A stretch of 15,847 nt of DNA from positions 8,485-24,331 of the forward strand of contig NVTL01000020.1 of assembly GCA_002401565.1 (NCBI GenBank), read 5' to 3'. Source of the stretch: Rhodospirillaceae bacterium. GTDB lineage: Bacteria; Pseudomonadota; Alphaproteobacteria; Rhodospirillales; Magnetovibrionaceae. Under the pieces are notes generated by a model. It searched no databases. It was not told where the DNA came from and saw only the letters and a list, made by a program, of their open reading frames with translations. This document shows positions 1 to 9,428 of this stretch, piece after piece. Within the stretch, counting starts at the first letter, position 1, and the number at the start of each line of letters is the position of its first letter. Made by a program: the position numbers and the translations under genes.

Positions 1-86
1 CAAGACGGTGAAACAACCAAATCCGTATCGGGGCAATATGTATCATCAATCAAATTAATAAAAAGGCGCTGACGATGTTCGCTCAT
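1..86 (-). CDS. Unidentified protein, N-terminal fragment cut by window edge
   Basis: An ATG at 86-84 overlaps the TGA of the upstream nucleotidyltransferase gene as ATGA, and the frame stays open to the window edge. It gives 28 residues that begin MSEHRQRLFINLIDDTYC. This is too little to name a family. The 4-bp overlap argues that it is a real, translationally coupled member of the sugar-acid operon. A methyltransferase or other sugar-modifying enzyme would fit the position, but that is only a guess from context. The remainder of the gene lies outside the window. Confidence 0.6.
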   Translation of the reverse strand, partial: MSEHRQRLFINLIDDTYCPDTDLVVSPS

Positions 87-835
87 GCCCTAAATTCTCG
101 CCAACGCCGTTCTATGTGGGTGTTCTTTTCCACCAAATCGGGCGATGCGTCTAAAAACGAAATGATTTCAGCTAAACTATAATCCATGCGTCCCGAAAAA
201 TGTTCAACAATCGCTGTGATCACATCCATGTCTTCGTTTGTATCAACTTCGATTTCCAATTCGGGACGGTTCAACAAGGCTGGAGCCTCAACATTTTGAA
301 CAGTGTAGAGATCGGGATGCTGGCGAATAAATAAGGTGCCGTGTTCACGAATTCTGGGGTCTTGTGTTCTGGTATCGGAATCTTGCAACGCACTTAACTT
401 AAAAACTTCGACTTCCATACCCGGCGGATATGTGGTGGTCAGATCATTGCCGAGAAAATCATACCCCCCGTCCTTTAAGAAACGACCGATTATTTCATCA
501 ATAATTTTGGGGTCAACCAATGGGGCGTCTCCAAACGCGACAACACCGACATCGGCTTTTTCGCTTTCAAGCGCCCCAAGCAAACGCGAAAGAACGTCAT
601 CTTCATCGCCGCGAAAACAAGAAACATTTTGGCTTTTTGTATACGCCTCGACAACATCATTATCAGGACTGTCGGGTGTGGCAACAACGATCGCGTCTAT
701 GCCTTCAGCCAGCTTTAAGCGGTCTAACAGATGACCCAGCATTGGTTTTCCAGCAATCGGCATCAACGTTTTGCCCGGCAGGCGGCTTGATCCCATGCGA
801 ACCGGGACAACAGCGATAACGCGTTGAAGGCTCAT
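83..835 (-). CDS. SpsF-type nucleotidyltransferase (cytidylyltransferase family)
   Basis: A 250-residue protein of the GT-A-fold nucleotidyltransferase group that contains SpsF, NeuA and KdsB. It probably activates a 2-keto-3-deoxy sugar acid with CTP in the cytoplasm. The N-terminus carries the nucleotide-binding signature (VPVRMGSSRLPGKTLMPIAG, about residues 10-29), followed by PMLGHLLDRL, FRGDEDDVLSR and the acidic FGDAPLVDP segment near residue 101. The combination of MGSSRLPGK with GDEDDVL and TYPPGMEVEVF resembles the SpsF/COG1861 branch more than classical NeuA. The ATG at 835 overlaps the preceding TGA (ATGA), with an AGAGG ribosome site about 10 bases upstream. The family is confident. 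The substrate, and whether it makes a CMP-sugar, are inferred from the adjacent NeuB-type synthase. Confidence 0.85.
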   Translation of the reverse strand: MSLQRVIAVVPVRMGSSRLPGKTLMPIAGKPMLGHLLDRLKLAEGIDAIVVATPDSPDNDVVEAYTKSQNVSCFRGDEDDVLSRLLGALESEKADVGVVAFGDAPLVDPKIIDEIIGRFLKDGGYDFLGNDLTTTYPPGMEVEVFKLSALQDSDTRTQDPRIREHGTLFIRQHPDLYTVQNVEAPALLNRPELEIEVDTNEDMDVITAIVEHFSGRMDYSLAEIISFLDASPDLVEKNTHIERRWREFRA

Positions 836-2169
836 ACGGGTTCAACCTCTTCAATTTCTTCAAGCAATCCATTGTCGACCAATTTTTGGGCTGCACTGCA
901 TAAATTTGCAAAGGGCTGTCCGCTGCGTTCTGCGATGGCGATTAAGTCATTTGAACCATCCGCTGAAAACATCATCCACGTGATCGCATCGATTTCGGCT
1001 TCGACGGTCATATTTGCTTTGTCAGCATTCGCAGACTGATTTAACGCCCCGCCGGTTTGCGGATATAATCCACGTTTTCCCAATTGGGGTTCGCAATACG
1101 GCATCAAGGTTTTGTAAACGCGGTTTTGTTCCAAAATTTCAATTGCATCGACATACATTTCAAATGAAGCCAACAAGTTTTCACCCGTAACAAAATCCAA
1201 ATCATCCAAGGATGTATGGTATTCGTCATAGTCATAATATTTATCTTTGGCGATGGTACCCACCGGAATGCGAAACGCCGGCATGGAATATTGGCGTTCG
1301 TCTGATCCATCGGGGGCGAACGGACGCAGCCAAGGCTCGATCCCTTTATCCTTAAAGGCAAGCTTAACGGCACGGTCCATAAGATGATCGCCCAAAAAAG
1401 TTTCCTTATACGACAAACGCCCAGGCCCACCGCAACAGGACAAGACAAAGCCACCTTCAATGTTTTTCATCGCTTGTTCATTGTGAAACAAATAACTGAT
1501 GGCCCCAATGGTTTCGGGTAACCAAACAAACCGATAACTGTGTCGACGTTTTTTTTTCTGAGCAAGATAGCGATTTAAGAATGAGGTAACGACCATGCCG
1601 GATTGATTGTCATTGGCCATCCAAGGATGGCAGCAATATGTCGAAATCAAAAATTCTTTCTGTGACGTGCCGGGCAAAAGTGATTCTGCGAACGTCAAAT
1701 GCCCATCTTTAAGCGTGCTTTTAATCACCACGCGATAGCGCGCATTCCGGTCCAGTTTATCAAATTGTTTTTGGGCAAGACAAAAGCCCCAGCTTTCTTT
1801 GTAATAGCTGGTTCGGTAAGGAATCGCATCGGGTGAATTGGGCAAGGTATGAAGATGAGATTGCAAATCTTTGAACGAAAATTCATCATCAATCGGCAGG
1901 CTGTAACCAACAACGTGCAAACCATTTTGTTGAAAATCAACAATGCGTTTGCCATCCAATGTGGCGATGTACGCCTCTGTAATGATCCATTCTTTGGGAA
2001 TGGTCCAATCGTAAACTTCGGTGCCGGATGGATATTCTTTGACTTCAACATTGGCGATGCCTTTGATGATTTCAAGACTTTCGCGCACACCATCCCCGGT
2101 GATGGAACGGGTGATGGGAAACAGGCGCGTCAACAATCCATGAAGTTCTTGCGCGGTTGGCAACGTCAC
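832..2169 (-). CDS. DUF4910 aminopeptidase-like (M28-like) zinc protein with C-terminal winged helix
   Basis: A 445-residue protein of the COG4310/DUF4910 family (DUF2172 plus DUF4910 plus HTH_47-type tail), which has an M28-peptidase-like fold. Candidate zinc ligands are all visible: His181 and Asp187 in the CCHPWMANDNQSG segment, Glu219 in WLPETIGAI, an Asp in APDGSDERQ (about 287-290) and His318 in YHTSLDD. A winged-helix-like tail covers about residues 387-440. There is no signal peptide, so it is probably cytoplasmic. It sits between the sugar-acid synthase and the nucleotidyltransferase, overlapping both by 4 bases, so a role on an acylated or aminoacylated sugar intermediate (amidase or deacylase) is plausible but unproven. 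A GTG start at 2169 is chosen over the ATG at 2184: it has GGAGGA six bases upstream and forms a clean GTGA overlap. The true substrate is unknown. Confidence 0.85.
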   Translation of the reverse strand: MTLPTAQELHGLLTRLFPITRSITGDGVRESLEIIKGIANVEVKEYPSGTEVYDWTIPKEWIITEAYIATLDGKRIVDFQQNGLHVVGYSLPIDDEFSFKDLQSHLHTLPNSPDAIPYRTSYYKESWGFCLAQKQFDKLDRNARYRVVIKSTLKDGHLTFAESLLPGTSQKEFLISTYCCHPWMANDNQSGMVVTSFLNRYLAQKKKRRHSYRFVWLPETIGAISYLFHNEQAMKNIEGGFVLSCCGGPGRLSYKETFLGDHLMDRAVKLAFKDKGIEPWLRPFAPDGSDERQYSMPAFRIPVGTIAKDKYYDYDEYHTSLDDLDFVTGENLLASFEMYVDAIEILEQNRVYKTLMPYCEPQLGKRGLYPQTGGALNQSANADKANMTVEAEIDAITWMMFSADGSNDLIAIAERSGQPFANLCSAAQKLVDNGLLEEIEEVEPV

Positions 2170-3221
2170 GCCAAATCCTCCCATTGTAAAATATGGTCTT
2201 CTTCAAGATCTGTTGAAAGAGAACGACCGACAACCTCATCCCAATGCAGGGGGCTAATGCCATGCGCAGGGCGTTTATAAGTCAGATCAGACTCGTCAAG
2301 AACAGTTCCCGCTTTCAAAGGACGATCGATAACAATTGACCGCCGAGCATGTTCTCGAGCGGGGGCTTCGGCGTCCAATGGTTTTTTACCTTGTTCCCCA
2401 GAAACCACCGTTAACAAGTCAACATTTTCGATAAATCGTTTTAAGTCATGAACATCCATTGCATGATAATGGTCGTTCCCCGGCAAGGTCTTGTCATGGG
2501 TAAAGTGTTTTTCGAGCACCACAGCACCTTTTTGCCAAGCCGCCGTGAGTATCAACATGCGTTCATCCGGCAAAGTGTGATCGGAATAGCCGATCAGCGT
2601 ATCGGGATAGGTATGGCGCAAACCTTTAATCATATCCAAATGGGCATTTTCATTGGGGCATGGGTAATTCAAGATGCAATGAAGCAAGATTAAATCCTGA
2701 CACCCCGCCTTTTCCAATGTGGACACAGCATGGTCAATTTCGTCGAGGGTCGAAGCCCCCGTAGACAACAAAACAGGTTTTTTCTTGCCCGCGATTTGGC
2801 GCAACAAAGGAACATTGGTCAGGTCCGCCGAGGCAATTTTATGAAACGGTAACAGCGGGTCTAAAAAATCTGCGGCATCAGAATCAAACGGTGTCGATAA
2901 AAAATCAATACCAACATCTTGACAATGTTCGGCCAAAGTGACGTATTCATCTTTGCCAAACATATCGTATTTTTGAAACAATTTATGTTGGCTTTGCGTG
3001 GGTTCTTTTGAAGTGTCCCAATACGCAGGGCTGTGTTTCGATGCGATACGGCTGGCTTTATAGGTTTGAAATTTTGCGGCATCTGCACCGCCCTCTTTAC
3101 ACAGATCAATCAGCCGTTTGGCGGTATCCATCGAACCTTCGTGGTTCACGCCAATTTCGGCAATCACATACGGACGACCGCCGGCCCGAACCGTACTTTT
3201 CCCGAGTTTAATTTCAGTCAT
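2166..3221 (-). CDS. NeuB/SpsE-family sialic-acid-like synthase with SAF domain
   Basis: A 351-residue cytoplasmic enzyme of the NeuB/PseI/LegI/SpsE family. These enzymes condense phosphoenolpyruvate with an N-acyl hexosamine to give a nine-carbon 2-keto-3-deoxy sugar acid. The TIM barrel carries IAEIGVNHEG (20-29; Glu22), AAKFQTY (Lys50), LSTPFD, a KIASAD segment, IGYSDHT (a metal-binding His) and VLEKHFT (Glu, Lys and the second metal-binding His). An antifreeze-like SAF domain closes the C-terminus, including RSIVIDRPLKAG and YKRPAHGIS. Full family length. The ATG at 3221 is preferred over the one at 3257, because the latter adds 12 unconserved residues read inside the aminotransferase gene. 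The chosen ATG overlaps the aminotransferase stop as ATGACTGA. Family membership is sure; the exact sugar (sialic, legionaminic, pseudaminic or other) is not readable. Confidence 0.92.
   Translation of the reverse strand: MTEIKLGKSTVRAGGRPYVIAEIGVNHEGSMDTAKRLIDLCKEGGADAAKFQTYKASRIASKHSPAYWDTSKEPTQSQHKLFQKYDMFGKDEYVTLAEHCQDVGIDFLSTPFDSDAADFLDPLLPFHKIASADLTNVPLLRQIAGKKKPVLLSTGASTLDEIDHAVSTLEKAGCQDLILLHCILNYPCPNENAHLDMIKGLRHTYPDTLIGYSDHTLPDERMLILTAAWQKGAVVLEKHFTHDKTLPGNDHYHAMDVHDLKRFIENVDLLTVVSGEQGKKPLDAEAPAREHARRSIVIDRPLKAGTVLDESDLTYKRPAHGISPLHWDEVVGRSLSTDLEEDHILQWEDLA
2176..2181 (-). promoter_or_regulatory. Ribosome binding site that fixes the GTG start of the DUF4910 gene
   Basis: The coding strand reads GGAGGA at 2181-2176, then six bases (TTTGGC), then GTG at 2169. 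This strong Shine-Dalgarno lies inside the end of the NeuB-type gene. It would be inside the reading frame if the ATG at 2184 were used, so it supports the shorter protein. Confidence 0.7.
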
Positions 3222-4431
3222 GGGTAAAATTTCCGTTGCGAATATCGTCAAGGGCACGACGCGTTAAATTGATCATGTCTGTAAATTCTTTTTCACTCAT
3301 CCAATGTTGGAACGGAAACGACACCATATTGTCAAAGAAGTTTTCAGTATTGGGACAATCCGCCTTTCCAAAACCTGCTTTTTCAAACAGGGGATAACGA
3401 TAAAGAGGATGATATTGCACCACGGCTTTGATTCCGTGTGTATACGCCAGCAAGGACAAAAAATCGTCGCGTGTGGCGCCAAATTGTGCACCGTTATAAC
3501 GCACCGCCATCAAATGCCAGGCGTGTTCGCAATCTTTGGGAATCTTTTGAAATTCTAATTCCGGGTAGTCCCGAAAAGCTTCGATAAAACGGTCTGCACG
3601 GGTCTTGCGGTCTGCGTTAATGGTTTTTAAACGGTCCAGTAATTTTGAACCCAAGGCACATTGTACTTCGCCAATGCAAAAATTGTACGGCCAAAGCCCA
3701 TCAACATCAAAATCGACGTTGCTCATCGCCGGGACCCAATAATGCGGGCGATCACCTTCGTAACCGCGCATGCCATTGTGTCGCAATCCGGGAACCAATT
3801 TTGCATGCTCATCAGACTTAACCGTCAACATGCCGCCTTCACCCAGCGTCGAAATGTTTTTATGGGTGTGAAAACTGAAACAACCAAAATCACCAATAGA
3901 ACCAGCCTGACGACCTTTATAAGACACACCAACAGCCTGTGCTGCATCTTCGACAACCAACACGTTATGAATTTTTGCCAAGTCCATAATCGGGTCCATG
4001 TCGCACATCAGACCATACAGATGAACGACGATAATCACCTTGGTGTTATCCGTAATCAGTGGATGGATTGTATCGACTGTGACAACACGAGTGTCTGAAT
4101 CAATATCGGCCCACACCAATTTTGCACCGGTCCGGGCAAACGGAATGGCGGTTGCGGCAAATGTATGAGCCGGCAAGATCACTTCATCGTCGGGTCCCAA
4201 ATCACACAACAACGCAGACAATTCCAACGCTGCGGTACAACTGGATACGGCAAAGGCGTGATTGGCCTGTGTATACGTTTTAAAACGGTCTTCAAATTCG
4301 GATTGATAATGCCCCTGTGTCAATGGATCAGCTGCCCGCATAGCTTCAACCACGGTAGCAATTTCTTCTTCCGTATAGGTTAAGCCACGCCCGCTCCAAG
4401 GGACTTTTATGTCGCTTATATTATTTGGCAT
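3214..4431 (-). CDS. DegT/DnrJ/EryC1/StrS-family PLP sugar aminotransferase
   Basis: A 405-residue fold-type I PLP enzyme that transfers an amino group, usually from glutamate, to a keto- or aldehydo-sugar. Visible features are the SSCTAALEL phosphate-binding segment (about 63-71), LPAHTF (86-91), EDAAQAVG (161-168; Asp162 for the pyridine nitrogen), SIGDFGCFSFHTHKN with the Schiff-base lysine at Lys191, and GEGGML (197-202). Length is typical. It ends in an 8-base overlap with the NeuB-type synthase, and its ATG lies 4 bases after the radical SAM stop with AAAGGA about 11 bases upstream. It could act before the synthase (as PseC or LegC do on a UDP-4-keto sugar) or, together with the KdnB-like dehydrogenase upstream, on an aldehyde at the chain end, as KdnA does. 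The sequence alone does not decide. Confidence 0.93.
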   Translation of the reverse strand: MPNNISDIKVPWSGRGLTYTEEEIATVVEAMRAADPLTQGHYQSEFEDRFKTYTQANHAFAVSSCTAALELSALLCDLGPDDEVILPAHTFAATAIPFARTGAKLVWADIDSDTRVVTVDTIHPLITDNTKVIIVVHLYGLMCDMDPIMDLAKIHNVLVVEDAAQAVGVSYKGRQAGSIGDFGCFSFHTHKNISTLGEGGMLTVKSDEHAKLVPGLRHNGMRGYEGDRPHYWVPAMSNVDFDVDGLWPYNFCIGEVQCALGSKLLDRLKTINADRKTRADRFIEAFRDYPELEFQKIPKDCEHAWHLMAVRYNGAQFGATRDDFLSLLAYTHGIKAVVQYHPLYRYPLFEKAGFGKADCPNTENFFDNMVSFPFQHWMSEKEFTDMINLTRRALDDIRNGNFTHD

Positions 4432-4435
4432 ACTC

Positions 4436-6331
4436 CTAACGTCCTTTGCGTAAAGGGTTCATTGCGTCTGTTGTGCCGACGTAACCGCCCATATCCTTTT
4501 CAACTGTGCGCCGCAAAGATTGAAAGGTTACTTTTTTACGGGGAAGAACAGCCCATTTAAGGACGTCCCCCACGTCCCGAAAACGCCCACGCGTTAAGGA
4601 TAGTAGCAAATAAAGAGGCAACATCACGTTGCGAAATGGGTAGACCAAGTGTGGATGACAGATCAAAATCATATTAAACTTCCGCCCTTTGAGGAGCTTC
4701 CACAAGGATGGGATAACATCGCCATCAGCTTCCAATCGCTCTCTTCTGCTATGAATGCTGTCTGAGACCAAAGTTCGTTCACCTGGCAACCGATCATCTT
4801 TAACCTCTTGATTTTCCGCTCCTCGTTCCATACTCAACTTTGGTTCGTTGTAATAACCTGAAATAGGACGCGATTGCTTAAAGAAGTTACCATCATGAGC
4901 CAAAACCTTGTGATAATGCGCCAAGCCAAATTTTTTCACATAGGCCCCTAAGACCTCAAGCCGAATACGAGGCCGCCACAAAAAACAAACAAGACGTGGA
5001 GCATCGGTGAAATTATGGGTCGCATCCGAAGCATTTTTATCAGAGATCAACTCTAAATACTCTTCTTCGCTATCAAGATCGTCTCCAATTAAACCTAAAT
5101 GGCGTGCGTATTCGTACAATGGAGTTCCCGGCAATGCTTGGGCATAGTTAATACTCAAGTCATTTGGGTTTTGGCTCTTATCCAAGGTCAAGGCATATTT
5201 GCAAAACTCAGCGCTCTCTACGGCCGTTCGGGTTGATTCTCCCGGCATACCTAACACCAACTGGACAACCGTCTGTATCTTGGCACCAACAGTCCAGCGC
5301 ATGGCATTTCGATTGTCTTCAATTTTGGTTTTCTTTTCCATGACCTGAAGAATATCAGGGCTGCCCGTTTCCATGCCGTAGTTAATCGAACAGCACCCCG
5401 CATCTTTCATCATGGTAATTTCATCGGGAGTAATACAATTCACCCGCATCCCGCCAACATGCCAGAGCACATCCAATTCTTTAACTTTTTCGCAAAACTC
5501 TTTTAGCCAACGAGAATCTGTTCCAAAGTTTTCGTCGCCAAACCCAAGAAAGCCCACATTATACTTTTCCATCACTTCTTTAATGCGTTCGATGACTTGG
5601 TCGACTGGAATGTAGCGAATGCCCTTATCCCAGCGGTGACAAAATGTACAACGCGCAACACATCCCTTTGAACCGGGTATAATGGTGACTTTTTTATCTT
5701 TGCGATGTTTTTCAAAAGCTCGGGTGTCTTTTTCAAACCATGGAAACACACCATTTTCATCAAATGCATCCATAAAAAAAACACTCATATCCGAGGTTTC
5801 CTCTAAATCAGCATAATCATAATTATACACTTCAGACTTTGGAAGCGACTGAGCAAACCCAGCTTCAACCATATGACCATGTTCATCCAATAACGTTGCG
5901 CCATGAATATCTGCAAAATCAGCAACAACCGATGTGGTTTCGGCACGTTTGCAAATATCAAAAAACGCCTTCTCGCCTTCACCAATGACGCATATATCTG
6001 TTCCCGTGCGCTGCAAAATTATTTCCGCACTGGCCGCTAAATTCCCCCCAACAACGATCAGCGTATTGGGCAGCGCCGCTTTCACATCTAGGGAAAGTTG
6101 CTTGGTATAGCTGTATGCCGTTGACACGACAGAACTGATGCCAAGAACATCGGGGTTGGCATCAATAATATGCTGCACAGCATCTTCATAAGTGGGACGA
6201 TTAGCATCAATATTATAAAACTCAACATCGAGCCCCTGTGTGCGAAGGTATTTAACAATTGATAAACTGCCCATGGGAGGGAAAGACGTTGGCACCGGAC
6301 GGATCGGCGTTGTTACCATCATGATATTCAT
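4436..6331 (-). CDS. B12-binding-domain radical SAM protein
   Basis: A 631-residue enzyme. The N-terminal about 150 residues look like the cobalamin-binding Rossmann domain (MMVTTPIRPVP, PPMGSLSIVKYLR, DVLGISSVVS, LIVVGGNLAA, ICVIGEGE), without the DxHxxG base-off motif, which is common in this class. The radical SAM core follows with the 4Fe-4S motif CVARCTFC (Cys224, Cys228, Cys231) and LGFGDENFGTD. A C-terminal extension of roughly 180 residues includes a hydrophobic segment near the end (LPLYLLLSL). Cobalamin-type radical SAM enzymes catalyse C- or P-methylation, cyclisation or rearrangements. Here the likely target is a sugar, lipid carrier or glycan precursor, which is inference from context. 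The start at ATG 6331 has TAGG six bases upstream. The stop lies 4 bases before the aminotransferase ATG, so the two are co-transcribed. Confidence 0.88.
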   Translation of the reverse strand: MNIMMVTTPIRPVPTSFPPMGSLSIVKYLRTQGLDVEFYNIDANRPTYEDAVQHIIDANPDVLGISSVVSTAYSYTKQLSLDVKAALPNTLIVVGGNLAASAEIILQRTGTDICVIGEGEKAFFDICKRAETTSVVADFADIHGATLLDEHGHMVEAGFAQSLPKSEVYNYDYADLEETSDMSVFFMDAFDENGVFPWFEKDTRAFEKHRKDKKVTIIPGSKGCVARCTFCHRWDKGIRYIPVDQVIERIKEVMEKYNVGFLGFGDENFGTDSRWLKEFCEKVKELDVLWHVGGMRVNCITPDEITMMKDAGCCSINYGMETGSPDILQVMEKKTKIEDNRNAMRWTVGAKIQTVVQLVLGMPGESTRTAVESAEFCKYALTLDKSQNPNDLSINYAQALPGTPLYEYARHLGLIGDDLDSEEEYLELISDKNASDATHNFTDAPRLVCFLWRPRIRLEVLGAYVKKFGLAHYHKVLAHDGNFFKQSRPISGYYNEPKLSMERGAENQEVKDDRLPGERTLVSDSIHSRRERLEADGDVIPSLWKLLKGRKFNMILICHPHLVYPFRNVMLPLYLLLSLTRGRFRDVGDVLKWAVLPRKKVTFQSLRRTVEKDMGGYVGTTDAMNPLRKGR

Positions 6332-6380
6332 TGAAAGCCTACTATTTTCTTCTTGTTATATTTGCGCATGCGGCACTGCA

Positions 6381-7046
6381 TCAGAGTGCGTGTTTGTCAC
6401 TTAACTTAGCTTCAAAAATGCCTGCTTTATCCTGATCTTTGGTCATGTTGCCGTCATGTTGACGATACCGATAAAGAGGAAGCTGGACCCTATGGATCGT
6501 GTATTTCTGTTCAAAACGATAACGAAGGTCTTGATCTTCATGGATATGAAATTCATCATCGTAAAGACCAATTGCAATCAAATGATCTGCACGAAACATA
6601 ATTCCACAGCCAATGGGATCCGTCATACAGTTCTTACGCTCTAATACATTTTCCATGCTGTCTATCATAAAGTAATCACAGGCCACCGCGTCCATATCCG
6701 TATTGAATTCTAAGAACTGGCGTAAGATATATAAATAATCGGCCTGCACGTAATCATCGGCATCCACACGAACAATGTATTTTCCACGAGCCTTCTTAAT
6801 CGCCTTGTTCAAACTTCCTGGCAAACCAAGCTGTTTGTCATTTTGAATGATCACAATTTGGTCTGAAAACAGCTCCATCGCATAAGCCGTACGGTCCGTG
6901 CTGGCATCATTGATGACAATGACTTCGAACTCTTTTTCATCAACCGTTTGTCCCAAGACAGACCGGATCGCACGCCCTATATGAATCTCTTCATTAAAAG
7001 CTGGAATGATGACGGATATTTGTGGGATTTGAGACACGGATAACAC
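6381..7046 (-). CDS. Family 2 glycosyltransferase (GT-A)
   Basis: A cytoplasmic glycosyltransferase of at most 221 residues. The N-terminus has [11 protein letters not shown] and [10 protein letters not shown], the nucleotide-sugar DxD motif appears in VRVDADDYV, and [10 protein letters not shown] provides the acidic catalytic-base region. [17 protein letters not shown] near the end is typical of GT2 proteins, so the gene is complete although short. It has no membrane segment. Two GTG starts are possible: 7046, which lengthens the protein by three residues, and 7037, which has TAGG eight bases upstream and may be the true one. It follows the KdnB-like gene after 17 bases and probably adds a sugar to the glycan built by this operon. 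Donor and acceptor are unknown. Confidence 0.88.
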
Positions 7047-7063: not shown

Positions 7064-8140
7064 TTACATGAGGCGAAAGAGTTCGCTGACTTTCTTAAAG
7101 GTCAATATCTCTTTGAAGTCATCTCCAAGAGCATTGACTAACGGTTTTTCATGAACGATAGAGGCATCGAATAATTGCTGCATCTGCTGTTCATCAAGCT
7201 CGGCGCAGACACCCTGTGGAATATCCACGCCATTGGCTTTGGCCATGGTCTTGAACTCTTTAGTTTCCTGCGGATAGAACTCATCCATGACATTCATGAC
7301 AATACAATTTGCGACACAATGATGAAGGCCTAAAACCATGCTCAACCCTGCCGACAGAGGATGCACCAAACCAACAAAGCTGTTGCCAATGGCGCTGCCC
7401 CCCAAAAAAGATGCGACCATCATCTGTTCACGATTTCCAAGGCTTTGCATATCATCGGACAAAAATATATCTCGGCAAATTTTCAAAGCCTGATCAGAAC
7501 ACGCATCGGCAAAGGCATTGCGAAACCGGCCTTGCAAAGACTCGATGCAATGAATGTAAGTATCCATGCCGCTATAAAAATACTGATCCTTCGGCACAGA
7601 GTCTGTCAAATTGGGGTCGAGGATCAAGCGATCATAAACCGTAAAGTCGCTGTTCATACCAAGTTTAAGGTTTTTACTGTGGTTCATCAGCACACACGTG
7701 CGCGAACCTTCGGCTCCTGTACCTGATAATGTCGGCACACCAATTTTAAAAATACCAGGAACCTTGACCAAATCCCAACCTTGATAATCCTCCGATTTTC
7801 CGCCATTGGTCAGCAAATTAGCCATGCCTTTACCAATGTCGAGGGTGCTTCCTCCACCAATGGCAACGATAACAGCAGGCATTTTTTCAAGAGCACGAAC
7901 ATCACCCGTAAGGGCATCTAGCTGGTCTGTAGTGGGCTCATGAGTGCTGTCGACAAAAATTAATGCGTCTTCATCACGAACGGGCAACCCCTTAACCAAG
8001 GCAGATGATTTAAAATAGTGATCCATAAGGAAAAGAACTGAGCCGGGCGTTTGTTCTAGACGCACATCAATCATTGTTTCCAAATGATCAATCGCTCCCT
8101 CACCGATATAATACTGTCCAACTGTTTTCGTTACACGCAT
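7064..8140 (-). CDS. Iron-dependent alcohol dehydrogenase, KdnB-like (Kdo 8-oxidase family)
   Basis: A 358-residue group III metal-dependent alcohol dehydrogenase. It has the GGGST nucleotide-binding motif (95-99) and a full metal-ligand set: Asp193, His197, His260 and His274, with the 4/63/14 spacing seen in FucO. The stretch from SEDYQGWDL through VPTLSGTGAEGSRT to GMDTYIHCIESLQG matches what I recall of Shewanella KdnB. KdnB oxidises C8 of Kdo to an aldehyde, which the aminotransferase KdnA then aminates to 8-amino-Kdo. The DegT-family gene three places downstream could supply that second step. It is the first gene after the ops-like site and so the first expected RfaH target. Start ATG 8140 has GGA eight bases upstream. 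The dehydrogenase family is certain; the KdnB function is a strong but unproven reading. Confidence 0.85.
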   Translation of the reverse strand: MRVTKTVGQYYIGEGAIDHLETMIDVRLEQTPGSVLFLMDHYFKSSALVKGLPVRDEDALIFVDSTHEPTTDQLDALTGDVRALEKMPAVIVAIGGGSTLDIGKGMANLLTNGGKSEDYQGWDLVKVPGIFKIGVPTLSGTGAEGSRTCVLMNHSKNLKLGMNSDFTVYDRLILDPNLTDSVPKDQYFYSGMDTYIHCIESLQGRFRNAFADACSDQALKICRDIFLSDDMQSLGNREQMMVASFLGGSAIGNSFVGLVHPLSAGLSMVLGLHHCVANCIVMNVMDEFYPQETKEFKTMAKANGVDIPQGVCAELDEQQMQQLFDASIVHEKPLVNALGDDFKEILTFKKVSELFRLM

Positions 8141-8164
8141 GTACTATTCCATTATTTATTTTCT

Positions 8165-8199
8165 AAAAAACCAAATCCAGACAAGCTACCGCACTTTGG
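8165..8199 (-). terminator. Weak terminator-like stem with T6 tract in the kdnB-like leader
   Basis: On the coding strand CCAAA (8199-8195) can pair with TTTGG (8175-8171) and is followed directly by six T (8170-8165). The 19-base loop contains the ops-like site. The stem is short and has only two G-C pairs, so as an intrinsic terminator it would be leaky at best. Its overlap with the ops-like element suggests a possible control point, but this is inference. Confidence 0.3.
8183..8193 (-). promoter_or_regulatory. ops-like element (RfaH recruitment site)
   Basis: The coding strand reads TGCGGTAGCTT at 8193-8183, against the ops consensus GGCGGTAGCNT; only the first base differs. The GCGGTAGC core, able to form the small non-template hairpin known from Escherichia coli, is intact. 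Counting the last T as -1, the site also fits the elemental pause pattern G-10, T-1, G+1 (the next base is G). It lies between an RfaH homologue and the first gene of a long glycan operon, on the transcribed sense strand, where a working ops must be. No second copy was noticed in the window. Confidence 0.75.
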
Positions 8200-8235
8200 G
8201 TGAAAAGACTTCCTCCAAAGCGTACGTCCTGGTCA

Positions 8236-8259
8236 CGTCATAAAATCGTTCTTATGACG
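8236..8259. repeat. Perfect 8-bp inverted repeat across the rfaH stop codon
   Basis: CGTCATAA (8236-8243) and TTATGACG (8252-8259) are perfect inverted copies separated by 8 bases. The right arm contains the TAA stop of the RfaH homologue. In the minus direction no T-run follows, so it is not a standard intrinsic terminator. It could be a pause or mRNA-stabilising hairpin, or a protein site. Confidence 0.5.
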
Positions 8260-8749
8260 CTTTTGCTAAATTCTCTACGGATGCCTGCACCCGCACTTCA
8301 CGCCCCATAAGGTCCAACAATAAAATTGCGCGCCGATCTCCAGAGACTTCTTCCAACAGAGCCATGTGCTCTGCAAAAGCCCCGGCTTGGATCCGCACAA
8401 CATCCCCTTTTTTCAAACCATTGAGTGCTAAATTAACGACACCATTTTGTTCTTGGGTACGGATCATATCAACAATACTATCGGCAACCGCACAGGGGGC
8501 ATTGCCAAACTGAACCAAACCAATCACCCCCACGGTGCTATTGATCGCCCGCCACTGTTGCTGTTTTAAGCTTATGCTTACAAACAAATAACCGGGGAAA
8601 ACGGGGCGCAGAACGGTCTGTGTTTTTCGGGCGTGACGGATCACCTTGCTGTACCGTGGCAAATACACCTCAAACCCCTGATTTTTCAGATGCCATGCGG
8701 CGCGGTCTTCAGCGCCTGTTTTAGTGCGGACAACAAACCATGCTTTCAT
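8252..8749 (-). CDS. rfaH: RfaH-like transcription antiterminator (specialised NusG paralogue)
   Basis: A 165-residue protein with an N-terminal NGN domain (about 1-95) and a C-terminal KOW domain (about 112-165). Such proteins bind RNA polymerase paused at an ops site and let it read through long surface-polysaccharide operons. My recalled E. coli RfaH aligns without gaps over the first 90 residues: W4, K10, G12, R16, H20, L21, FPxYLFV (51-57), N70, T72 and FG (81-82) agree, while the DNA-contacting Arg73 is Val here. The length (162 in E. coli) and the short linker argue for RfaH rather than housekeeping NusG. Its ATG overlaps the upstream regulator stop (ATGA). The ops-like site 60 bases beyond its stop strongly supports the function. 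It could instead be another NusG-paralogue subfamily with a similar site. Confidence 0.87.
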   Translation of the reverse strand: MKAWFVVRTKTGAEDRAAWHLKNQGFEVYLPRYSKVIRHARKTQTVLRPVFPGYLFVSISLKQQQWRAINSTVGVIGLVQFGNAPCAVADSIVDMIRTQEQNGVVNLALNGLKKGDVVRIQAGAFAEHMALLEEVSGDRRAILLLDLMGREVRVQASVENLAKAS

Positions 8750-9399
8750 TTTTCAGCATCCCCGTTCAAACGCCGCGAAATATGCAACAGCGGTACCGTG
8801 AAAATTTGCTCATCACGAAAATATTCTCGCAACATTTCATAAGCTTCCTGAGGAGCATCTGCACTTGTGATAACAATGGCCGACAGATCAAGCTCTTGCA
8901 TCGCCGTTAAGTTGCTCACCACCGACAAGCCAGAAAATTGTTCCTGATTGGAAGCCGGCTGAACGATTGCCAAGACGTCTATTTCGGTTTCTTGAGCCGA
9001 AATAATGGCAATTTCAGCAATTTCACTCATACCGAATAGGGCGACGCGCGTATGTTCGTGTTGCTTCACATCCTCAAAAACAACCGTGTACTCTTCACGC
9101 ACTTGGCGGAAAAAATCTAAGGAACTGGATAAGTATTCCCCAATTAAACGGCTTTTTTCGCTAAATCCTTTTGGGGTAATGTAATAAACAAAGCGTTTTG
9201 CCGGGGCCTGGGTGATCTTAATCAGGCCCTTTTTAGCGGCGCGCTTCAACAGGCTATTGGTCAAACCAAGCGCCACACCAATACGGCTGGCCAGCCCGCG
9301 TTGTGTCAATTGCTCATCATTTTCAAGCACCGCCAACAACGACAAGGTCGCACGATCAACTAATTTTGTACGATCTCTGGTCTCTTCAGAAGCGGGCAT
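8746..9399 (-). CDS. Winged-helix regulator with Rossmann-like sensor domain
   Basis: A 217-residue protein. Residues about 12-80 form a MarR-type winged helix (LLAVLENDEQLTQRGLASRI, TNSLLKRAAKKGLI, wing with KRFVYYITPKGF), close to the regulators found at exopolysaccharide loci. Residues about 113-205 look like a Rossmann-type domain (TRVALFGMSEIAEIA, IDVLAIVQPA, LSAIVITSAD), which may sense a nucleotide, nucleotide-sugar or CoA. The start is placed at ATG 9399, which has AAGG eight bases upstream; a TTG at 9420 would only add seven residues. The gene is coupled by ATGA to the rfaH homologue, so the regulator sets the level of the antiterminator. A palindrome overlaps its own promoter, which suggests autoregulation. 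The ligand and the sign of control are unknown. Confidence 0.75.
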   Translation of the reverse strand: MPASEETRDRTKLVDRATLSLLAVLENDEQLTQRGLASRIGVALGLTNSLLKRAAKKGLIKITQAPAKRFVYYITPKGFSEKSRLIGEYLSSSLDFFRQVREEYTVVFEDVKQHEHTRVALFGMSEIAEIAIISAQETEIDVLAIVQPASNQEQFSGLSVVSNLTAMQELDLSAIVITSADAPQEAYEMLREYFRDEQIFTVPLLHISRRLNGDAEK

Positions 9400-9428
9400 A
9401 CTCAAAACCTTAAAATACAATATTTACC

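Follow-up and report, generated by a model that had tools for sequence, protein, structure and literature searches.

The segment 8179–8223 on the (−) strand of the window (the whole stretch of DNA analysed here, 15,847 nucleotides from the MAG of a Rhodospirillaceae bacterium) very probably represents, at a probability that we put at about 0.82, an element that recruits the RfaH-like protein whose gene lies immediately upstream. An RNA hairpin is followed directly by an ops-like site in the leader of a glycan operon. The position of this element is conserved in related genomes, its hairpin covaries, and it is both linked to the RfaH-like gene and found in the same genomes as that gene. From this arrangement we infer pausing, binding, antitermination and co-transcription at the element. 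The features concerned are:

8746–9420, (−) strand: MarR_EPS-like winged-helix regulator gene, start codon uncertain (HTH_24, MarR_2)
8252–8749, (−) strand: RfaH-like NusG paralogue gene, 165 aa (PF02357, NGN domain)
8179–8223 (C37:16663-16707), (−) strand: hairpin-ops element, model R1 match of 39.7 bits
8215–8221, (−) strand: predicted 5' arm of the RNA hairpin, GCTTTGG
8193–8199, (−) strand: 3' arm of the RNA hairpin, CCAAAGT, its last base adjoining GCGGTAGC (predicted fold and group covariation)
8182–8193, (−) strand: ops-like 12-mer TGCGGTAGCTTG, bases 1–12, the presumed pause T11 being 8183
7064–8140, (−) strand: iron-containing alcohol dehydrogenase type gene (PF00465), first of the downstream operon
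83–7046, (−) strand: further co-directional genes (glycosyltransferase 2, B12/radical SAM, DegT aminotransferase, NeuB, DUF4910, cytidylyltransferase)

The best NusG-type model for the paralogue is that of RfaH (NCBIfam TIGR01955), at 129.6 bits and thus under the equivalog cut-off of 144.5. The protein also remains under the cut-offs for housekeeping NusG (TIGR00922, 76 bits against 135.7), UpxY (79.2 against 100) and LoaP (62.5 against 125). Its closest relative of solved structure is E. coli RfaH, and it is related to proteins of an Alphaproteobacteria bacterium MAG (69% identity) and a Magnetovibrio sp. MAG (60%). Since it is the sole PF02357 match in the 86% complete MAG, a housekeeping nusG was not found in that assembly. 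The MarR_EPS-like protein scores 56.2 bits against TIGR04176, below the cut-off of 88. The co-directional run behind the site spans some 16 kb before a second ops copy is reached, counts 13 genes of 110 codons or more over that distance, and continues beyond the window; the 8-kb glycan operon of the initial sequence-only reading was therefore an underestimate. The DegT aminotransferase, NeuB and cytidylyltransferase genes (window 83–835 and 2166–4431) suggest that the operon product may be a nonulosonic-acid-type sugar.

The ops-like site TGCGGTAGCTT lies at 8183–8193 (−), on the sense strand of the operon, as stated in the sequence-only reading, which had also noted the adjoining RfaH-like gene; it is conserved in relatives. 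Its central octamer GCGGTAGC (8185–8192, −) lies 59 nt 3' of the stop codon of that gene, in a gap of 111 bases between the gene (8252–8749) and the next gene start at 8140. The 12-mer includes the GCGGTAGCNTG core of ops. Base 1 is T instead of the G of ops (GGCGGTAGCNTG), and this single difference, already remarked upon at the outset, is the rule in the group: T occurs in 46 of 52 sites and G in six.

With up to two mismatches, GGCGGTAGCNT is matched 14 times in the window against 8.7 expected, two of these with one mismatch. The 3.03 Mb MAG holds eight copies of GCGGTAGCNT, as against 57 of the backward-read pattern, and six of the eight fall inside open frames that are 222 codons long or longer. 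The remaining two, the window site and C37:632-641, are located in frames of 47 and 75 codons and are the only matches to the hairpin-ops model R1 in the MAG at E<=0.01. They share the context TTTTCACC-A-AGTGCGGTAGC-TGTCTG and lie on the same strand, 16 kb apart. The second hairpin-ops copy (G000:C37:628-671) is outside the window, at a contig end, where it precedes an exporter-like gene (gene type judged by eye).

A search of 150 genomes of the order gave NusG-type matches in 139. Matches with E up to 2.8e-12 define 70 RfaH-like loci, weaker ones being taken as housekeeping NusG and excluded, and 69 of these loci have at least 150 nt of sequence 3' of the stop. Sense GCGGTAGC occurs within 200 nt of the stop in 52 of the 69: at 43–96 nt in 50 (median 57.5), and at 176 and 192 nt in two further loci. 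No antisense copy occurs in those 200 nt of the same loci, and the rate downstream of the gene is 229 times that in the rest of the loci. Moreover, GCGGTAGC is the commonest 8-mer (50 loci) in an unpreset count over the first 120 nt after the stop. When sites were located via the hairpin arm, by a search which itself required G......C, GCGGTAGC was found in 50 of 51 order loci and GCGGCAGC in one; this search gave no match in 18 loci. Base 11 is T in 48 of the 52 sites, and base 12 is G in all 52. The exact site is absent within 200 nt from 17 of the 69 loci, one of which has GCGGCAGC. Loci without the site include seven close relatives with 59–70% identity (L014 and L016–L021); the partial match L092 was likewise counted as a locus without a site.

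In 64 of the 70 RfaH-like loci a co-directional MarR_EPS-like gene precedes the RfaH-like gene, and the next gene start often follows closely behind the site (median 31 nt in 47 of 50 loci). Together with the 50 of 69 loci carrying GCGGTAGC, this establishes a conserved marR-rfaH-(hairpin+ops)-glycan operon cassette. Loss of the octamer from the leaders of relatives had been named as an observation that would speak against an ops site; the octamer is kept in those 50 order loci, 43–96 nt 3' of the gene. Since gene and element have in part descended together, these loci are not independent of one another.

A hairpin stands immediately ahead of the octamer. The consensus of its 3' arm is TTCACCCGGAST, the predicted stem ends one or two bases ahead of GCGG in 33 of 52 sites, and the fold z score is below −1 in 45 of 52 (median −2.0). 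From stem end to T11 the distance is 10–11 nt, approximately the spacing of hairpin-stabilised pauses such as his. In an arm-swap test on 51 sites (L089, lacking this hairpin, was excluded), own arms scored 20.65 versus 17.47 ± 0.29 for swapped arms, the maximum of 300 swaps being 18.19. A plain alignment took 50 of the 52 sites (without L080 and L089) and left the 5' arms unaligned because loop lengths differ. Model R1 was therefore built from a seed, the 12 sites of one register, and the sites were then realigned (51 rows). The ungapped seed has double changes in four of eight pairs (11 cells versus 3.8; 0 of 500 shuffles). The 49 distinct realigned rows, in an alignment fitted to the model, have them in six of eight pairs (38 cells versus 12.9; 0 of 500 shuffles). 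In the realigned set, L096 (+ strand) was kept although it is an antisense artefact to which the near-palindromic hairpin gave rise; L067 and L078 did not reach the threshold.

Model R1, which was trained on gene-adjoining sites and thus favours them, detects the element at E<=0.01 in 61 of the order's 150 genomes, at E<=0.001 in 52 of 385 genomes of the class, and in 18 of 349 genomes of the phylum. Eight of these 18 belong to family f213 of another class, and an RfaH-like gene lies within 1.5 kb of four f213 sites (L187, L193, L195 and L203). The RfaH-like protein (E<=1e-15) is present in 87 of the same 385 class genomes. With the own genome set aside, the remaining 384 divide into 46 with element and gene, five with the element only, 40 with the gene only and 293 with neither (Fisher p 8e-30); 46 of the 51 element genomes thus have the gene. 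Within the order, the gene is present in 47 of the 48 genomes having the element at E<=1e-4 versus 66 of 150 overall; 19 genomes have the gene with no element at this threshold, and 83 have neither. Of the 55 class sites, 26 stand at most 250 nt behind the gene, and another seven follow it on its own strand at up to 25 kb. A further seven are elsewhere on the contig of the gene (four divergent, within 3 kb), 10 are on other contigs, and five are in genomes where the gene was not detected.

Many of the genes behind 32 distal loci are nucleotide-sugar dehydratases, DegT aminotransferases, glycosyltransferases and exporters, as judged by eye with no domain search. At least four of the distal matches (L157, L171, L172 and L175) look like chance or coding sequence and were discarded. 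Six genomes of the family have the RfaH-like gene with no site within 200 nt, and five of them (G001, G007, G009, G011 and G015) hold an exact CACC-N5-TGCGGTAGCNTG elsewhere, suggesting that some RfaH-like proteins probably act in trans. The sixth, G004 (66% complete), has no exact copy. In the nine genomes searched with one mismatch allowed, the pattern gave nine matches (seven exact) against 12 for the backward control, and only the seven exact ones count as support. The idea of a linked, possibly self-contained cassette put forward in the sequence-only reading is thus borne out for the regulator-rfaH-ops-operon order, but self-containment is only partial, five of those six genomes having copies elsewhere. 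That reading did not include the covarying hairpin, the copies at further operons or the absence of R73 and E48 from most of the proteins. One locus (L169; G009:C40, 58057-58327) carries two CACC-context ops copies on opposite strands, about 230 bases apart. In a divergent layout, ops is opposite in strand to the RfaH-like gene in L126, L129, L146 and L208, and in L208 it precedes a MarR_EPS gene.

Seven alphaproteobacterial plasmid loci were examined, among 40 listed of 399 matching records. The Mesorhizobium sp. 131-2-5 plasmid has a hairpin and GCGGTAGC 70 nt past the gene, with TG one base farther than in ops, followed by genes for a nucleotide sugar dehydrogenase and then an epimerase. 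In Sulfitobacter sp. CB2047 the site is divergent from the gene. No site lies directly downstream of the gene on the plasmids of Cereibacter sphaeroides, Aestuarium, Bradyrhizobium, Novosphingobium and Sulfitobacter faviae.

These observations suggest the following working for a recruitment element. As a promoter could hardly fit into the short stretch from stop codon to site, RNA polymerase (RNAP) would reach the leader after reading marR-rfaH or from a promoter inside them. The nascent RNA would fold into the hairpin behind RNAP, which would pause at T11 of ops, and the exposed non-template GCGGTAGC would capture the RfaH-like protein. The latter would then exclude NusG and stay on RNAP, lessening pausing and Rho termination over the 16-kb glycan operon, and might perhaps also recruit the ribosome. 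Where copies of the element occur elsewhere, the same protein could serve other glycan operons.

In E. coli RfaH, K10, H20, R23 and R73 contact ops (PMC5995543, consulted in part). The window protein has K10, H20, N23 and V73 at these positions, and the 52 proteins with a site have K10 in 8, H20 in 25, R23 in 35 and R73 in one; the full E. coli set is absent from the window protein and from nearly all of the group. As K10, H20 and R73 occur only in 8, 25 and one of the 52, the protein-ops contacts, to judge from these residues, cannot be quite those of E. coli. Q24, T72, G74, F56 and R138 are present in 52 of 52 site-bearing proteins, F56 being the RNAP-binding residue of the NGN domain (PF02357), and Q24 is also present in 15 of 15 proteins without a site. 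Among residues linked to autoinhibition, E48 occurs in one of the 52 proteins, I93 in 22 (V in 29) and F130 in 44.

AlphaFold predicts an all-beta KOW domain for the window protein (pLDDT 88.4, pTM 0.64). The input comprised 54 sequences: the window protein, two MAG relatives and 51 of 68 usable virus-contig proteins. In Foldseek, the model aligns over 167 columns with fully recruited RfaH (8phk, TM 0.55) and over 94 columns with autoinhibited RfaH (2oug). As the alignment was mostly viral and no E. coli control was run, the beta KOW prediction is a pointer only to a non-autoinhibited protein. If it is right, the ops core would be kept by a non-autoinhibited protein reading ops not quite as in E. 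coli.

Of the alternatives, the likeliest, though still improbable, is loading without sequence reading. A preprint (PMC13015549, in the portions available) describes RfaH homologues predicted to be constitutively folded and lacking ops-binding residues, and reported to be active in cis without ops. A constitutively active, cis-acting paralogue of this kind could load onto RNAP in the vicinity of its gene with no need to read the DNA, in which case hairpin and octamer would serve only to delay RNAP. The presence of E48 and of R73 in only one protein each, the predicted beta KOW domain and the reported ops-independent activity of such homologues all favour this possibility. Like them, the window protein adjoins a long operon, has partly lost the ops contacts and has a KOW domain predicted to be beta; in contrast to their reported independence of ops, it has a conserved ops directly behind its gene. 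G4, G5, A7 and G8 of ops are needed by E. coli RfaH and dispensable for pausing, according to the consulted part of PMC5995543, yet 50 of the 51 sites located via the hairpin arm, those with GCGGTAGC, keep all four. Moreover, loading in cis does not explain copies at distant operons, and most proteins retain F130 and I93 or V93, residues connected with autoinhibition in E. coli.

A second alternative, for which we see very little probability, is that the element is an attenuator, an mRNA-processing or stability site, or a signal in translation of the next gene, its adjacency to the RfaH-like gene reflecting block inheritance only. Covariation of the hairpin would suit such a role, as would a location 43–96 nt past the stop, often close to the next start. 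Such a role does not account for the exact E. coli RfaH recognition core, nor for the near confinement of copies away from the gene to genomes having it; nor do Rfam families give a credible match to the element. Finally, that the window match is due to chance can be dismissed: GCGGTAGC occurs once, with 0.20 expected and at least one copy in 37 of 200 dinucleotide shuffles, so that the window alone would not exclude chance, but place and context are conserved in 50 of 69 loci, the second MAG copy has the same context and the octamer is the commonest downstream.

Recruitment of the RfaH-like protein remains the preferred reading, and E. coli RfaH-ops the closest parallel. Both systems have the GCGGTAGCNTG core with T11 and G12, a location in the leader of long polysaccharide operons and an NGN-KOW protein with F56 and R138. 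They differ in that the gene here stands directly before its site, whereas in E. coli it stands alone; base 1 is T; R73 and E48 are nearly always absent and K10 is mostly replaced; and the KOW domain is predicted to be beta here, whereas it is alpha-helical in E. coli.

The JUMPstart RNA (RF01707) likewise has a stem-loop just ahead of GGCGGTAGCGTG, as found here. Since the parts of E. coli JUMPstart come in this same order, the combination of hairpin and ops is in itself no new architecture. The stem and loop sequences differ, the 3' arm here being TTCACCCGGAST, and RF01707 (gathering score 35 bits) has no match in window 8000–8400 or in the own genome at E<=10, nor in 18 loci at E<=1. The E. 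coli control gives 61.1 bits, with a 5-bp stem ending two bases ahead of GCGG; membership of RF01707 is therefore ruled out. JUMPstart is listed for Gammaproteobacteria in the part of PMC2864571 consulted, and the alphaproteobacterial form is outside RF01707 coverage. The E. coli ops-paused complex has been described as distinct from hairpin-stabilised ones (PMC11001881, in part), whereas hairpin and ops signals are joined in the element here. As to earlier reports, Alphaproteobacteria account for 18% of rfaH genes, and an HTH regulator adjoins cluster CL4 (PMC7593976, in part). The open-licence literature searched, partly in excerpt and including PMC11150451, PMC7819879 and PMC6391919, mentions neither ops nor JUMPstart for Alphaproteobacteria or for the position immediately behind rfaH, which does not prove absence from print.

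UpxY, TaA and LoaP are NusG paralogues encoded inside or near their target operon. The window protein shares this arrangement. It differs from UpxY and LoaP in being under both cut-offs and in that the mark here is an ops-type site.

Related pairs occur in phages. A viral scan with a single protein as query gave no match. The virus-contig set comprises 71 loci after exclusion of duplicates by the first 100 downstream bases, though some near-copies are still in it. In 18 of these loci GCGGTAGC occurs no more than 200 nt behind the paralogue, a rate 26 times that found elsewhere; a single copy is antisense. Two other groups have ACGGTAGTG (seven) or GCAGCGCG (10), seemingly behind hairpins as judged by eye. 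Q24 is found in 18 of 18 GCGGTAGC proteins, seven of seven ACGGTAGTG proteins, one of 10 GCAGCGCG proteins and 17 of 36 with none of the three; E10 is found in none, none, 10 of 10 and two of 36, respectively. The site groups are probably related by descent, so these residue patterns are not independent events. The GCAGCGCG loci (L211, L212, L216, L218, L222, L233, L235, L255, L256 and L257), with their E10, possibly use another recruitment code. In four of four virus-contig loci checked, the NusG paralogue and ops-like site are followed by a terminase large subunit gene (GCGGTAGC in L249 and L259; ACGGTAGTG in L225 and L250), an order that looks like a late-gene antitermination module.

Among such paralogues, recruitment is understood in detail for E. 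coli RfaH alone, and ops contacts and autoinhibition are held to have been acquired together (PMC7593976, in part). The system described here is a probable RfaH/ops variant in which gene and site are physically linked and ops is kept, and in which autoinhibition may be absent. More tentatively, and with somewhat less than even odds, ops could be older than, or independent of, the autoinhibited fold-switching state of RfaH. NusG paralogues of wide distribution (in Alphaproteobacteria, in a second class of the phylum and in phages) would then have their own hairpin-plus-pause landing site directly behind the gene; sites and DNA-reading residues (GCGGTAGC, ACGGTAGTG and GCAGCGCG groups) would diversify together, and a non-autoinhibited protein would still be guided by sequence. 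A clade that has the ops core and a conserved hairpin, at approximately the pause-hairpin spacing, but in which E48 and R73 are nearly always missing is a natural case of these features coming apart. Such natural protein-site pairs would allow tests of how NusG paralogues find their operons and of the order in which the features arose, and the element provides a means of cataloguing RfaH-controlled glycan operons throughout Alphaproteobacteria. The pair recurs before sugar-coat operons of many related bacteria and makes a second, differently built RfaH system available for testing.
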